From NCBI RefSeq assembly GCF_000801335.2, contig NZ_JSEH01000016.1:1-64000 (forward strand): DNA of 64,000 bases, written 5' to 3'. Position 1 is the first letter of the stretch; each line of letters begins with the position of its first letter. The notes below the pieces were generated by a model, which worked only from the letters and a program-made list of their open reading frames with translations, did not search any database and had not been told where the DNA came from. Positions 3,628-7,290 of this stretch are shown piece after piece. Origin of the DNA: Desulfovibrio sp. TomC (GTDB lineage Bacteria > Desulfobacterota > Desulfovibrionia > Desulfovibrionales > Desulfovibrionaceae). Both the position numbers and the translations under genes were made by a program.

Positions 3628-4098
3628 CTACAACTCCCCGCTGTCGGCAGATAGCTCTTCCAGAGAGAAGAGGCGGTCGGCGTCGAGGATGATGGTGAAC
3701 GTGCCTTCCAGGCTGACCAGGCCGCGCACGAACCGGGGGGGCACGGCCAGTCCCATGTCCGGGGGCGGGGCGATGTCGGCGTCGGCGATTTCCACCACCT
3801 CATGGACGGCGTCGGCCAGGGCGGCCACGGCCAGGGTGTCGCCGTCGTAGTCGCGTTCGACGATGATCAGGCAGGTGGGAGCCTTCGAACCGAACTCCAG
3901 CTCGAGCTTGCAGCCCAGATCCACCACGGTGGCGGCGTTGCCGCGCAGGTTGACCACACCGCGCAGATGGCCAGGGGCCAGGGGCACCACGGTCATCGGG
4001 GGCATGTCCAGGACCTCGGACACGAGCAGCGAGGGCAGGGCGAAGTGTTCGCCGCACAGGGTAAAGGTCAGGTATTGGTGCGTGGCGTCGTCGGCCAT
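3628..4098 (-). CDS. CheW-like chemotaxis coupling protein
   Basis: The 156-residue product is a stand-alone CheW domain: YLTFTLCGEHFALPSLLVSEVLDM at the N-terminus, the conserved GVVNLRGNAATVVDLG core (about residues 47-62), and the terminal RGLVSLEGTFTIILDADRLFS. CheW proteins couple chemoreceptors to the CheA kinase at the cytoplasmic face of the membrane. A GGAGG lies 8 bases upstream of the ATG. No receptor or cheA gene is beside it; a second CheW is at 30227-30694 and a CheA at 58771-60894. It is convergent with the FapA-type gene and diverges from the metal-transport operon. Confidence 0.88.
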   Translation of the reverse strand: MADDATHQYLTFTLCGEHFALPSLLVSEVLDMPPMTVVPLAPGHLRGVVNLRGNAATVVDLGCKLELEFGSKAPTCLIIVERDYDGDTLAVAALADAVHEVVEIADADIAPPPDMGLAVPPRFVRGLVSLEGTFTIILDADRLFSLEELSADSGEL

Positions 4099-4192: not shown

Positions 4193-4221
4193 TTGACAAG
4201 ACGGCCGGCCAGGCATACACA
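4193..4221 (+). promoter_or_regulatory. Candidate sigma70-type promoter of metal-transport operon
   Basis: A perfect TTGACA (4193-4198) is followed after 17 bases by TACACA (4216-4221). If real, transcription would begin near 4228 and give a leader of roughly 495 nt before the first transporter gene, long enough to hold the two small ORFs listed below. The -10 element matches the consensus only partly. Confidence 0.4.
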
Positions 4222-4320: not shown

Positions 4321-4407
4321 CGCTTCCTGCCGTCCACCGCGCCGCTGCCGCCCCATCCGGGTGCGCCAGGGTCGCCGCCGGCAGGCGGCGGCACAAGGAG
4401 GCGCCAG

Positions 4408-4575
4408 ATGAACACCTTTTTCATCGGGTCTGAAAATTTCGCCTCAGGGCTTTCCCCCCGTGCCGGCATCCGGCCCGGGGCGGCCGTACTTTTCCCTGTC
4501 TCGCGCCGGCTGTGCGCCGCCACCTCCGGCACAGCCCAGGAACCTCCCTCAGCCAGCCCCCTGCCCTCGTCGTAG
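4408..4575 (+). CDS. Possible second small leader ORF
   Basis: A 55-codon ORF (MNTFFIGSENF..., ending PLPSS) has a very good ribosome-binding site, AAGGAG seven bases before the ATG, preceded at once by a GC hairpin (GCCGCC/GGCGGC, about 4374-4389). The product is rich in Pro, Ser, Ala and Arg and has no recognisable domain. Its second half spans a perfect 8-bp inverted repeat. It may be a translated leader that couples translation to the fold of the downstream RNA, or a short unknown protein. The main support is the strength of the Shine-Dalgarno sequence and the position before the transporter operon. Confidence 0.35.
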   Translation: MNTFFIGSENFASGLSPRAGIRPGAAVLFPVSRRLCAATSGTAQEPPSASPLPSS

Positions 4576-4722: not shown

Positions 4723-5997
4723 ATGAACGAACTCTATGTCAGCGCGGTGCTCGGCCGTCCGGTCATCGACCCTTCAGGGGTCGAACTCGGCCGGCTCACC
4801 GATCTTGGGCTGGTGCCCGGCAAGACCCTGCCCGTGGTGTCCGGGCTTTTCATCCGCAGCGGCGGCCGGCGGCGCTTTGTGCCCTGGAGCTGCGTCAATC
4901 TGTTCACCCCGGTGATCGTCTCGGCCGATCTTTCCGGCGAGGCCGACAGCGACACGTCCTGGACCGAGGACGAGGAAACCGGCGCTATCACCGACATCAG
5001 GCTTCGCCGCGACATCCTCGACCGCCAGATCGTGGACGTGGACGGGGCCAAGGTGGTGCGGGTCAACGACCTCAAGCTGCATTCCCGGGGAAAAAGCCTT
5101 TTTATCGAGGCCGTGGACGTCGGCATCCGGGGCATGGCCCGGCGTCTGGGCCAGCTGCGCTTCTGGAACTGGCTGGCCAAGAGCCTGGGGGTGACCCTGC
5201 CCACCCGGGAAATCGACTGGCGTTTCGTGGCCCAGCTCGATCCCAACGCCGACAAGCTGACGCTGACCGTGGCCCGGGAACGCCTAACCGACATGCACCC
5301 GGCCGACATCGCCGAGATCCTGGCCCAGCTGCCCCACAAGGAAGCCGGCACGGTCATCGGGGCGCTCGACCCGGAAACCGTGGGCGAGGCCATCGGCGAA
5401 CTCGATCCCGAGGTGGGCGGCCGGGTGATCAGCCAGCTCGACAGCGAGATGGCCTCCGACATCCTCGAAGAGATGGAGCCGGACGAAGCCGCCGATCTGC
5501 TGGCCGATCTGCCCGAGGAAAAGGTCCGGGAACTCCTTGGCCTCATGGACACCGAAGATGCGGAGATGGTCCAGGAACTGCTCGAGCACGAGGAGGATAC
5601 GGCCGGCGGCCTCATGAACAACATGTTCGCCTTCGTGCCCCCGGCCATGACCGCCGAAGAGGCGCTCAACTACATCCGCCTGGTCGGGGCCGAGATCGAA
5701 AACGTCTACTACGTCTACGTGATCCGGGCCGACGAGACGCCTCTTGGGGTGGTGACGCTCAAGCGGTTGCTCCTGTCCCCGCCCAAGACCCCGGTGGCCG
5801 AGATCATGACCGTGGGCCTCAAAGCCGTTGGCGTCGAGGACACGCCGGGGAAGGTCATGGACATCATTTCCAAGTACAATTTGTTGGCCGTGCCGGTGCT
5901 TGATGACGGGCATATGGTCGGCATCGTGCAGGCGGATGCGGTCATCGAACGCTTTCTGCCCGAATCCGTCACCCGCACGCGGTTCGCCGCCCATTAG
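4723..5997 (+). CDS. Soluble MgtE-N/CBS domain protein lacking the transport domain
   Basis: The 424-residue protein starts at ATG 4723 behind GGGGGGAGG. Residues 1-170 look like two PRC-barrel-type segments (GRPVIDPSGVELGRLTDLGLV and DRQIVDVDGAKVVRVNDLKL). Residues about 185-310 form the helical MgtE N-domain, with repeated LDPE/MEPDEAADLLADLPEEK units. Residues about 312-424 form a CBS pair (ENVYYVYVIRADETPLGVVTL; AEIMTVGLKAVGVEDTPGKV). In true MgtE Mg2+ channels these cytosolic domains sense Mg2+ and gate a five-helix membrane pore; here the protein ends after the CBS pair and no pore exists. The Nramp-family gene begins 15 bases later, so this protein probably gates or regulates that transporter in trans. 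Pairing and operon structure are seen; the regulatory role is inferred. Confidence 0.85.
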   Translation: MNELYVSAVLGRPVIDPSGVELGRLTDLGLVPGKTLPVVSGLFIRSGGRRRFVPWSCVNLFTPVIVSADLSGEADSDTSWTEDEETGAITDIRLRRDILDRQIVDVDGAKVVRVNDLKLHSRGKSLFIEAVDVGIRGMARRLGQLRFWNWLAKSLGVTLPTREIDWRFVAQLDPNADKLTLTVARERLTDMHPADIAEILAQLPHKEAGTVIGALDPETVGEAIGELDPEVGGRVISQLDSEMASDILEEMEPDEAADLLADLPEEKVRELLGLMDTEDAEMVQELLEHEEDTAGGLMNNMFAFVPPAMTAEEALNYIRLVGAEIENVYYVYVIRADETPLGVVTLKRLLLSPPKTPVAEIMTVGLKAVGVEDTPGKVMDIISKYNLLAVPVLDDGHMVGIVQADAVIERFLPESVTRTRFAAH

Positions 5998-6012
5998 ACG
6001 TTGAGGTCTGTC

Positions 6013-7290
6013 ATGCCGTTTTTCAAAAAGTTCTCGCGCAAAAATATCCTGCTCTTTTTCGCCCTGCTCGGTCCCGGCATCATCACCGCCAACGTGGACA
6101 ACGACGCCGGCGGCATCACCACCTATTCCCTGGCCGGGGCGCGCTACGGCTATTCCCTGCTGTGGATGCTCATTCCCACCACGGTCTCCCTGGTGGTCAT
6201 CCAGGAGATGTGCGCCCGCATGGGCGCGGTGACCGGCAAGGGCCTGTCCGACCTCATCCGCGAGTCGTTCGGGCTGCGCACCACGTTTTACATCATGATT
6301 GCGCTGTTTCTGACCAACCTCGGCAACACCATTTCGGAATTCGCCGGCATCGCCGCCGGACTCGAGCTTTTCGGCGTCACCAAGTACCTGTCCGTGCCCC
6401 TGGCCGCGGCCCTGGTCTGGCTGCTCATCGTCAAAGGCTCGTATCGCATTGTGGAGCGGGTCTTTTTGATCGTCTGCGTGGTCTATCTGGTCTATCCCCT
6501 GGCCGCGCTCTCGGCCGACGTGCCCTGGGGCGAGGTGGCCCGGGCCGCCGTCACCCCGACCTTTCGGGCCGACGGCGACTATGTGGCCATGATGATCGCG
6601 CTCATTGGCACCACCATTGCCCCCTGGATGCAGTTCTACCAGCAGGCGGCGGTGGTCGAGAAAGGCATCACGGCCGAGAACTACGGCTTTACCCGGCTCG
6701 ACGTCATCATCGGCTGCGTCCTGGCCGTCATCGTGGCCCTTTTTATCGTGGTGGCCTGCGCCGCCTCCATCCACCGCCAGGGCCTGCCCATCGAGACGGC
6801 GGCCGACGCGGCCATGGCCCTTGAACCGCTGGTCGGGAAATACGCCTCCTGGCTTTTTGGCGTGGGACTCATCAACGCCTCGCTCTTTGCCGCCGGCATC
6901 CTGCCGCTGTCCACGGCCTATTACATCTGCGAGGCCATGGGCTGGGAACTGGGCATCGACAAGGATTTCCGCCGCGCCCCGGAATTCTTCTGGCTCTTTA
7001 CCATCAGCGTGGTCATCGGCGCGGCCACCATCCTCATCCCCGGCATGCCGCTCATGTTCGTCATGTACGTGTCCCAGGTGGTCAACGGCGTGATGCTGCC
7101 CTTTGTCCTGATCCTCATGCTGCTCTTGATCAACAACAAGCGGCTCATGGGCAAATTCGTCAACGGGCCGATCTTTAACGCCGTGGCCTGGGTGACGGTG
7201 GCCGGCCTGATCGTTCTGACCGCAGTGATGACCATCGACACGGTCTGGCCCGGAGCCATCAGCGCCCTGGTGAAGCTGGTGGCTGGGTAG
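6013..7290 (+). CDS. Nramp-family metal transporter with non-canonical binding site
   Basis: The 425-residue protein has about eleven hydrophobic segments and aligns by eye with Nramp/SLC11 transporters (GPGIITANVDNDAGG in TM1; IALIGTTIAPWMQFYQQ in TM6). The metal-binding signatures differ from Mn/Fe transporters. DPGN of TM1 reads D31-A-G-G34, so the asparagine ligand is glycine, and MPH of TM6 reads A203-P-W205, so the metal-selecting methionine is alanine. Loss of that methionine is a reported trait of the Nramp-related Mg2+ transporters (NRMT). With the Mg2+-sensor-like gene directly upstream, I predict Mg2+ rather than Mn2+ transport. ATG 6013 was chosen over TTG 6001 because GAGG lies six bases before it. 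Confidence 0.82.
   Translation: MPFFKKFSRKNILLFFALLGPGIITANVDNDAGGITTYSLAGARYGYSLLWMLIPTTVSLVVIQEMCARMGAVTGKGLSDLIRESFGLRTTFYIMIALFLTNLGNTISEFAGIAAGLELFGVTKYLSVPLAAALVWLLIVKGSYRIVERVFLIVCVVYLVYPLAALSADVPWGEVARAAVTPTFRADGDYVAMMIALIGTTIAPWMQFYQQAAVVEKGITAENYGFTRLDVIIGCVLAVIVALFIVVACAASIHRQGLPIETAADAAMALEPLVGKYASWLFGVGLINASLFAAGILPLSTAYYICEAMGWELGIDKDFRRAPEFFWLFTISVVIGAATILIPGMPLMFVMYVSQVVNGVMLPFVLILMLLLINNKRLMGKFVNGPIFNAVAWVTVAGLIVLTAVMTIDTVWPGAISALVKLVAG

Follow-up and report, generated by a model that had tools for sequence, protein, structure and literature searches.

A pore-less MgtE-type protein paired with an NRMT-type carrier downstream of a putative two-frame leader in Desulfovibrio sp. 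TomC

The window analyzed here, a 64,000-nucleotide stretch of Desulfovibrio sp. TomC (contig NZ_JSEH01000016.1, positions 1 to 64,000), carries two adjacent genes on the forward strand, encoding a pore-less MgtE-type protein (protein 1) and a relative of the Nramp transporters (protein 2), with 15 bases between the stop codon of the first and the ATG of the second (Table 1). Judged by their sequences, the two genes belong to an already known class of Mg2+ modules made up of two genes, and this membership is well supported. The nearest relatives of the locus in named genomes were those of Desulfovibrio sp. DV and Solidesulfovibrio, from which the host is presumably a sulfate reducer. Loci, genomes, genera and families of the surveys are given below by our own L, G, g and f numbers where they need to be told apart.

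Table 1. Coordinates of the gene pair, its domains and the upstream features in the window (aa, amino acids; ORF, open reading frame).
Feature	Position	Strand	Basis
Candidate -35 box, TTGACA	4193..4198	+	Invariant in 7 aligned upstream regions; putative
Leader ORF-A, 21 aa, MDEPYSSSCFFPHVYPLTVTR, preceded by GAGGAAA	4255..4320	+	M-D-[DE]-P conservation; pS > pN in frame
CGCTTCCT, immediately 3' of the ORF-A stop; predicted pairing partner 4396-4403	4321..4328	+	Minimum-energy fold, energy-based only
AAGGAGG, Shine-Dalgarno of ORF-B, predicted sequestered	4395..4401	+	Minimum-energy fold
Leader ORF-B, 55 aa, ending EPPSASPLPSS (Pro-rich)	4408..4575	+	Conservation with Shine-Dalgarno; pooled dN/dS 0.66
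Protein 1, pore-less MgtE-type sensor (PRC-type N-terminal part, MgtE_N, CBS pair), 424 aa	4723..5997	+	Pfam, TtMgtE alignment, model, fold matches
PRC-barrel, residues 1-60	4723..4902	+	Pfam PF05239, 25.6 bits, cut-off 21.2
MgtE_N domain, residues 191-292	5293..5598	+	Pfam
CBS pair, residues 293-412	5599..5958	+	Pfam and alignment to TtMgtE up to native residue 253
Short C-terminal tail PESVTRTRFAAH, where MgtE has the plug helix	5959..5994	+	Alignment, charge count
Protein 2, Nramp-related Mg2+ transporter (NRMT), 425 aa	6013..7290	+	Pfam, solved-chain match, motifs, tree

An earlier sequence-only reading of this DNA had described protein 1 as the MgtE_N and CBS domains of MgtE without the pore, and the searches bear this out: Pfam returned both domains and no MgtE pore domain (PF01769), and hydropathy was low, no membrane segment being found with a 19-residue window at or above 1.6 (maximum 1.34). 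The two-gene inventory of that reading was right; it overlooked the PRC-type part of about 180 aa in front of MgtE_N and the conserved leader upstream. Residues 183–412 aligned to the cytosolic domain of TtMgtE, the Pfam CBS match itself covered residues 358–409, a FliG_M match (32.7 bits, cut-off 25) fell inside the MgtE_N stretch, and no DNA-binding domain was found by Pfam. The TIGR00400 MgtE model, whose cut-off is 232.75 bits, reached only 145.7 and covered no more than model positions 22–249 of 450. A predicted model of protein 1 was used for domain order only because its quality was modest (mean predicted local distance difference test score, pLDDT, 75.7; predicted template modeling score, pTM, 0.38); in it the first 165 residues were mostly beta strand, followed by helices and the CBS pair, and a second beta-rich, PRC-like stretch may lie at about residues 92–141. 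The ten best fold matches of this model were all MgtE-type chains, with E values from 3.6e-18.

The Mg2+ site residues of TtMgtE, taken from the accessible text of PMC5882242 and PMC5529423, were followed through 108 distinct protein-1 relatives. The Mg6 residue D95 was retained in all 108 and the Mg7 position E59 was acidic in 107, while the Mg4 residues D91 and D247 were each retained in 84 and the Mg5 residues D226 and D250 in 37 and 16, respectively. Canonical MgtEs of the phylum (n = 20) kept D91, D247 and D250 in every case and D226 in 10, with Asn in the other 10, so that a change at position 226 says little. In the window copy, positions 59, 91 and 95 are E, D and D and positions 247, 226 and 250 are A, N and E; the Mg6 and Mg7 residues are thus kept and Mg4 and Mg5 each altered on one or both sides. 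The plug residues E258 and D259 (Mg2, Mg3) have no counterpart in protein 1. Beyond TtMgtE position 253 the tails of the 108 relatives had a median of 9 residues and a net charge of at least +2 in 84, of 0 or +1 in 19 and negative in 5; the first 12 residues after this position were net negative in 20/20 canonical MgtEs. By alignment and charge count, the acidic plug helix of MgtE is exchanged in protein 1 and its relatives for a short, mostly basic tail. Protein 1 shares with TtMgtE (2yvy/2zy9) the N domain, the CBS pair and the Mg6 and Mg7 residues, and differs from it in the missing pore and acidic plug helix, the partly changed Mg4/Mg5 and the extra PRC-type front. ATP sensing as in TtMgtE finds no support in protein 1, where the site residues mostly differ, a mismatch that says little because the 20 canonical MgtEs of the phylum differ there too.

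Protein 2 matched the Pfam Nramp family over residues 35–385 (E 2e-101), and its closest solved chain was 7qia (E 2.1e-115; next chain 8.2e-27), which we take to be EleNRMT of Eggerthella lenta. The 7QIA entry is an NRMT structure according to the accessible text of PMC9606685. NRMTs are defined, in the accessible text of Ramanadane et al. 2022 (PMC8806188), by DxxG in transmembrane segment 1 (TM1) and TxxA/T in TM6, and protein 2 has this signature, reading DNDAGG in TM1 (canonical DPGN) and TTIAPW in TM6 (canonical MPH). Both replacements, DAGG and APW, had been spotted in the sequence-only reading and are confirmed here; the methionine ligand of canonical Nramps is absent. In a tree built without the C. 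acetobutylicum and A. capsulatum sequences, protein 2 fell with the NRMTs, as that reading had anticipated, and canonical MntH was separated from its side at 100/100. The window transporter lay inside a 12-row clade (100/100) that includes members preceded by the M-box riboswitch, and EleNRMT stood in the same 34-row clade as protein 2 (support 91/82, not starred) on a long branch, the deep joins of the tree being unsure because of such long branches. The NCBIfam MntH model did not reach its cut-off on protein 2 (142 bits against 430) and the general Nramp model NF037982 passed (75.5 bits, cut-off 50). A canonical Mn/Fe Nramp was rejected on motif and tree. Protein 2 aligns with EleNRMT over 402 residues and has the same DxxG/TxxA site; the EleNRMT paper (PMC8806188) differs in that its accessible text names no MgtE-like partner, and the words “operon” and “genomic” are absent from its main text. 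Elsewhere the genome of strain TomC encodes a canonical MntH with DPGN and MPH (L004, 1354–2640) and two CorA proteins, and a search of this genome for the MgtE pore (PF01769) found none, by which regulation of a full-length MgtE in trans by protein 1 was rejected.

Conservation of the pair was surveyed among the best 80 of 506 relatives of protein 2 in named genomes and in 198 genomes of the phylum. In the first set, protein 1 adjoined protein 2 at 75 of the 80 loci and the other five (L018, L051, L053, L080, L081) are cut by a contig end on the protein 1 side, a pattern that is not due to chance. In the phylum sample, with protein 1 accepted including its PRC part at E 1.5e-79 or better and protein 2 at E 1e-30 or better, protein 1 occurred in 45 genomes and a protein 2 match in 47, all 45 being among the 47. 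Three of the protein-1 rows were shortened by contig ends, and scoring was limited to nine candidates per genome, so that the survey may have overlooked protein 1 in some cases. In the two genomes with a protein 2 match alone (G005, G119), the copies read had DDDPSG and DDDPAC in place of DNDAGG. The 45 genomes span 19 families and three gene arrangements. The genes were adjacent in 40, with protein 1 first and on the same strand in 30 and in a 31st at a contig end (G137), convergent in 6 (G027, G064, G099, G154, G174, G179), and with protein 2 first in 3 (G042, G185, G192); gaps between the matched stretches ran from 32 to 745 bases. In the remaining five the genes were on different contigs (G060, G097, G125, G152, G127), both G127 genes ending at contig ends. 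The survey thus upholds the constant pairing that the sequence-only reading had expected, and chance neighborhood was rejected on the co-occurrence. No fused single-chain version was seen among the 45 protein-1 rows, whose open frames of at most 677 aa are too short for both proteins.

Motifs were read in loci from L083 onward and in L004, L010 and the window, out of 132 frames collected. All transporters linked to protein 1 with TM1 in hand read DNDAGG, and TM6 was TTIAPW or TTVAPW save in L093 (TTITPW), L119 (ATVAPW) and L121 and L122 (TSITPW). At the level of loci, the convergent ones (L126, L127, L128, L129, L130, L136) keep the link without a shared operon, the transporter comes first at L131, L132, L135 and L141, and at L118–L123, from four genomes of families f23 and f54, the genes lie on different contigs, two of the transporters reading TSITPW. 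The pair was also present on plasmids of Alicyclobacillus, Mycolicibacterium and Citrobacter, and in Leifsonia, Serratia, Arthrobacter and Streptomyces clavuligerus a protein-1 match, with or without a pore, stood by coordinates beside a protein-2 match. A relative on a Paraburkholderia plasmid read DNDAGA and had no partner within the 11 kb fetched.

The occurrence of the pair was then set against that of pore-bearing MgtE, defined by PF01769 above cut-off. In the 198 phylum genomes, such an MgtE was found in 3/45 genomes with the pair and in 114/153 others (Fisher p 6.5e-17). All three exceptions belong to genus g10, among them the genome of locus L161 (G007), and one further pair genome (G108) had a PF01769 match below cut-off. 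Shuffling MgtE within families, in the 180 genomes with a listed family (18 unlisted ones left out), gave a count as low in 0/20000 cases (Mantel-Haenszel chi-square 21.4), and in this sample eight families have some genomes with the pair and other genomes with MgtE, none with both. A sample of the host's own family, searched for protein 1 and not for protein 2 and overlapping the phylum sample in a few genomes, gave MgtE in 2/22 protein-1 genomes and in 103/127 others (p 8.7e-11); both exceptions (G255, G276) are of genus g172, and in G276 the match is fragmentary, lying at the end of a contig. Genomes with protein 1 and a pore-bearing MgtE were in all confined to these two genera, g10 and g172. 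In many related genomes, the MgtE transporter seems to have its place taken by the pair.

In 37 of the 80 close relatives, an M-box (ykoK) riboswitch (RF00380) lies 65–382 bases upstream of protein 1. It was first found by Rfam among 13 loci, and a model (R1) was built from five of them (L021, L030, L132, L138, L139), which match it by construction. The M-box also precedes the pair in L088, L089, L090, L138, L139 and L132, including pairs on Alicyclobacillus and Mycolicibacterium plasmids; at L132, where the transporter comes first, the M-box is upstream of the transporter, and at L139 one small ORF stands between the M-box and the pair. An M-box in the window was rejected, none being detected by Rfam or by the five-relative model, and none was found in Desulfovibrio-type loci among the 80 searched. 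Membership of the window in the mgtE-nramp operon group stands nonetheless, since the M-box is optional in this group. Together, the riboswitch in relatives, the rarity of pore-bearing MgtE in genomes with the pair and a canonical MntH encoded elsewhere in the genome point to Mg2+ as the probable substrate of protein 2 in this organism.

The core idea of such a pair is already in print, as the accessible text of Shin et al. 2014 (PMC4072509) reports that most NrmT genes adjoin a gene homologous to the cytoplasmic domain of MgtE and proposes for the latter a cytoplasmic feedback or chaperone role, which it leaves open; in the same source, complementation is reported to show Mg2+ transport by C. 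acetobutylicum NrmT. The sequence-only reading had proposed a two-protein Mg2+ system distinct from MgtE, CorA and MntH: the NRMT carrier and the conserved pairing speak for this, and its kind had already been published there. As far as the text goes, those operons share with the window the same two genes side by side, the transporter group and the feedback idea, with the riboswitch in some members, whereas the window has a two-ORF leader and no riboswitch. Neither PRC nor CBS appears as a word in the main text of that paper, and its accessible text makes no mention of the basic tail, of mutual exclusion between pair and MgtE or of other gene orders. What is added here to the published picture is the co-occurrence and the gene arrangements, the MgtE exclusion, the M-box counts, the basic tail and the leader. 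A literature search in which most subscription papers lay outside coverage found no later test of the MgtE-like partner.

The leader lies between a divergent gene starting at 4098, CheW-like by reading, and protein 1, in upstream sequence that is conserved in the genus; a sigma-70 scan of it gave no promoter-like site. Both ORF-A, with M-D-[DE]-P at its start, and ORF-B, each with a Shine-Dalgarno sequence, were present in all 12 distinct upstream sequences for which protein 1 was at least 77% identical, and, among 17 distinct and more distant loci from the family or the order, ORF-A was found in 6; the count of 17 leaves out L011, L012, L014 and L015, of Geobacteraceae or Desulfuromonadales, which have no ORF-A. 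A frame nearby, which we take to be tatA-like, ends 51–161 bases before protein 1 in 8 of the 11 loci without ORF-A and 540–554 bases before it in 3 of the 6 with ORF-A. On comparing L171, L173 and L077 with L178, L179, L060, L043, L066 and L183, the leader appears as a module of about 390 bases that some loci have and others lack between the tatA-like gene and the sensor gene. The pattern GAGGAAANNATGGAYGANCC occurred once each in 11 of 149 family genomes, the coordinates placing every match upstream of protein 1, and the controls gave no match.

In frame, the proportions of nonsynonymous (pN) and synonymous (pS) differences were 0.289 and 0.480 for ORF-A, against pN/pS of 0.323/0.318 and 0.333/0.363 in the shifted frames, so that pS clearly exceeded pN only in its reading frame; for ORF-B they were 0.294 and 0.397, against 0.330/0.348 and 0.345/0.261, all of these values being rough, and for ORF-B weak, because pairs were pooled without a tree. 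At least five of the six bases of the ORF-B AGGAGG were paired in 17/17 minimum-energy folds of the inter-ORF sequence (the set of 18 ORF-A leaders less L172), the partner lying 3–8 bases after the ORF-A stop in 9 folds and 33–62 bases after it in the other 8. Covariation cannot back this hairpin because none of the 12 aligned sequences varies on the Shine-Dalgarno side, and the alifold z-scores of -7.72 and -7.84 are overstated, coming from column shuffles.

The leader is the new part of the system, with a putative function set out below; no report of such a leader in Desulfovibrio turned up in the part of the literature covered by the search. The leaders that it most resembles are mgtL (EPDP) and mgtQ (Asp2, Glu5 and a conserved Pro4) of Escherichia coli/Salmonella, in which, according to the accessible text of PMC11282234 and PMC8092293, early acidic residues and proline act through ribosome destabilization. 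They share with the window a short ORF whose first residues include acidic ones and Pro, located upstream of a Mg2+ transporter gene, and, for mgtQ, an RNA structure hiding a ribosome site, in the window a predicted hairpin. They differ in that the window has two ORFs before a two-gene NRMT operon, and the resemblance goes no further than motif and place; in mgtQ itself, the same sources indicate, the proline codon is not needed.

Taken together, the evidence is best read as a Mg2+ uptake module, an account that we consider probable, in which an NRMT carrier would be damped in trans by a detached MgtE sensor, with control by a leader in this genus. Protein 2 would import Mg2+ and probably, as the literature states for NRMTs, would not couple this import to protons. 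In a replete cytosol the N and CBS domains of protein 1 would bind Mg2+, and Mg2+-bound protein 1 would touch protein 2 in trans and damp uptake, with the short, mostly basic tail possibly contacting the carrier or the membrane; this gating, like the Mg2+ sensing of the leader and its direction, we infer. At low Mg2+, ribosomes that begin on ORF-A (M-D-E-P) would tend to fall off; this would alter whether the ribosome site of ORF-B is hidden in the hairpin and would thereby set expression of the pair. A more far-reaching proposal, which we put forward tentatively as possible rather than probable, is that in the window lineage the M-box of the pair has been replaced by this convergent translational sensor, ORF-A drop-off at low Mg2+ and an anti-Shine-Dalgarno helix deciding translation of ORF-B and the pair, so that the operon would sense Mg2+ at two levels, its synthesis being tuned via the ribosome and its activity via the trans sensor.

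Several observations weigh against the module as a whole. In the accessible text of PMC4072509, C. acetobutylicum NrmT works without a partner, the A. capsulatum transporter is mainly a Mn2+ importer, and co-expression of the A. capsulatum MgtE-like gene gave no better Mg2+ rescue. The six genomes with convergent genes can have no shared operon there, and in G060, G097, G125 and G152 the separate contigs give no sign of adjacency. The window itself lacks the M-box, its protein 1 tail is barely basic (net +1), and its copy has Ala at 247 and Glu at 250, both Asp in 20/20 canonical MgtEs.

Some of these points would fit import of Mn2+ (a transition metal) by the pair, with an MgtE-like partner that responds to Mn2+, a proposal made for Acidobacterium capsulatum, whose Acp2977 rescues a Mn2+ transport mutant (PMC4072509, accessible text), and the M-box-less window operon is in keeping with it; yet a canonical MntH is already encoded in the genome, the M-box precedes the pair in close relatives, pair and MgtE exclude each other and protein 2 lacks the methionine ligand, all of which make this reading unlikely. 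Somewhat less improbable, though still not favored, is that protein 1 does not gate and has another role, whether as a buffer for Mg2+ or a chaperone, in the assembly or turnover of protein 2, or in regulating gene expression. Shin et al. named the chaperone alternative and their NrmT works alone (PMC4072509, accessible text), the PRC-type front is not in the aligned TtMgtE chains and the plug helix is lost; the strict co-occurrence with the carrier and the two retained N/CBS Mg2+ sites fit a sensor, and Pfam gave no DNA-binding domain for a regulator. That the genes are neighbors by history only, with no joint function, would suit the genes being apart in 4/45 genomes, but it is hardly credible given 45/45 co-occurrence across 19 families and three gene arrangements, pairs on plasmids of Bacillota, Actinomycetota and Enterobacterales, and no genome with protein 1 alone in the 198-genome sample.

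For the Mg2+ uptake module, the co-occurrence, the MgtE exclusion and the exchange of plug for mostly basic tail open the trans-sensor idea to direct test, and the pair would be a case of a sensor domain detached from one transporter fold and traveling with an unrelated one. If the leader acts as proposed, ribosome-based Mg2+ sensing would be a recurrent solution and not an enterobacterial specialty, and one that can replace a riboswitch at the same operon.

On the Mycolicibacterium plasmid, a second Nramp relative reading DDDPSG/TTITPY stands beside the pair (L139, 627–2054), with an annotated MgtC/SapB family protein near it.

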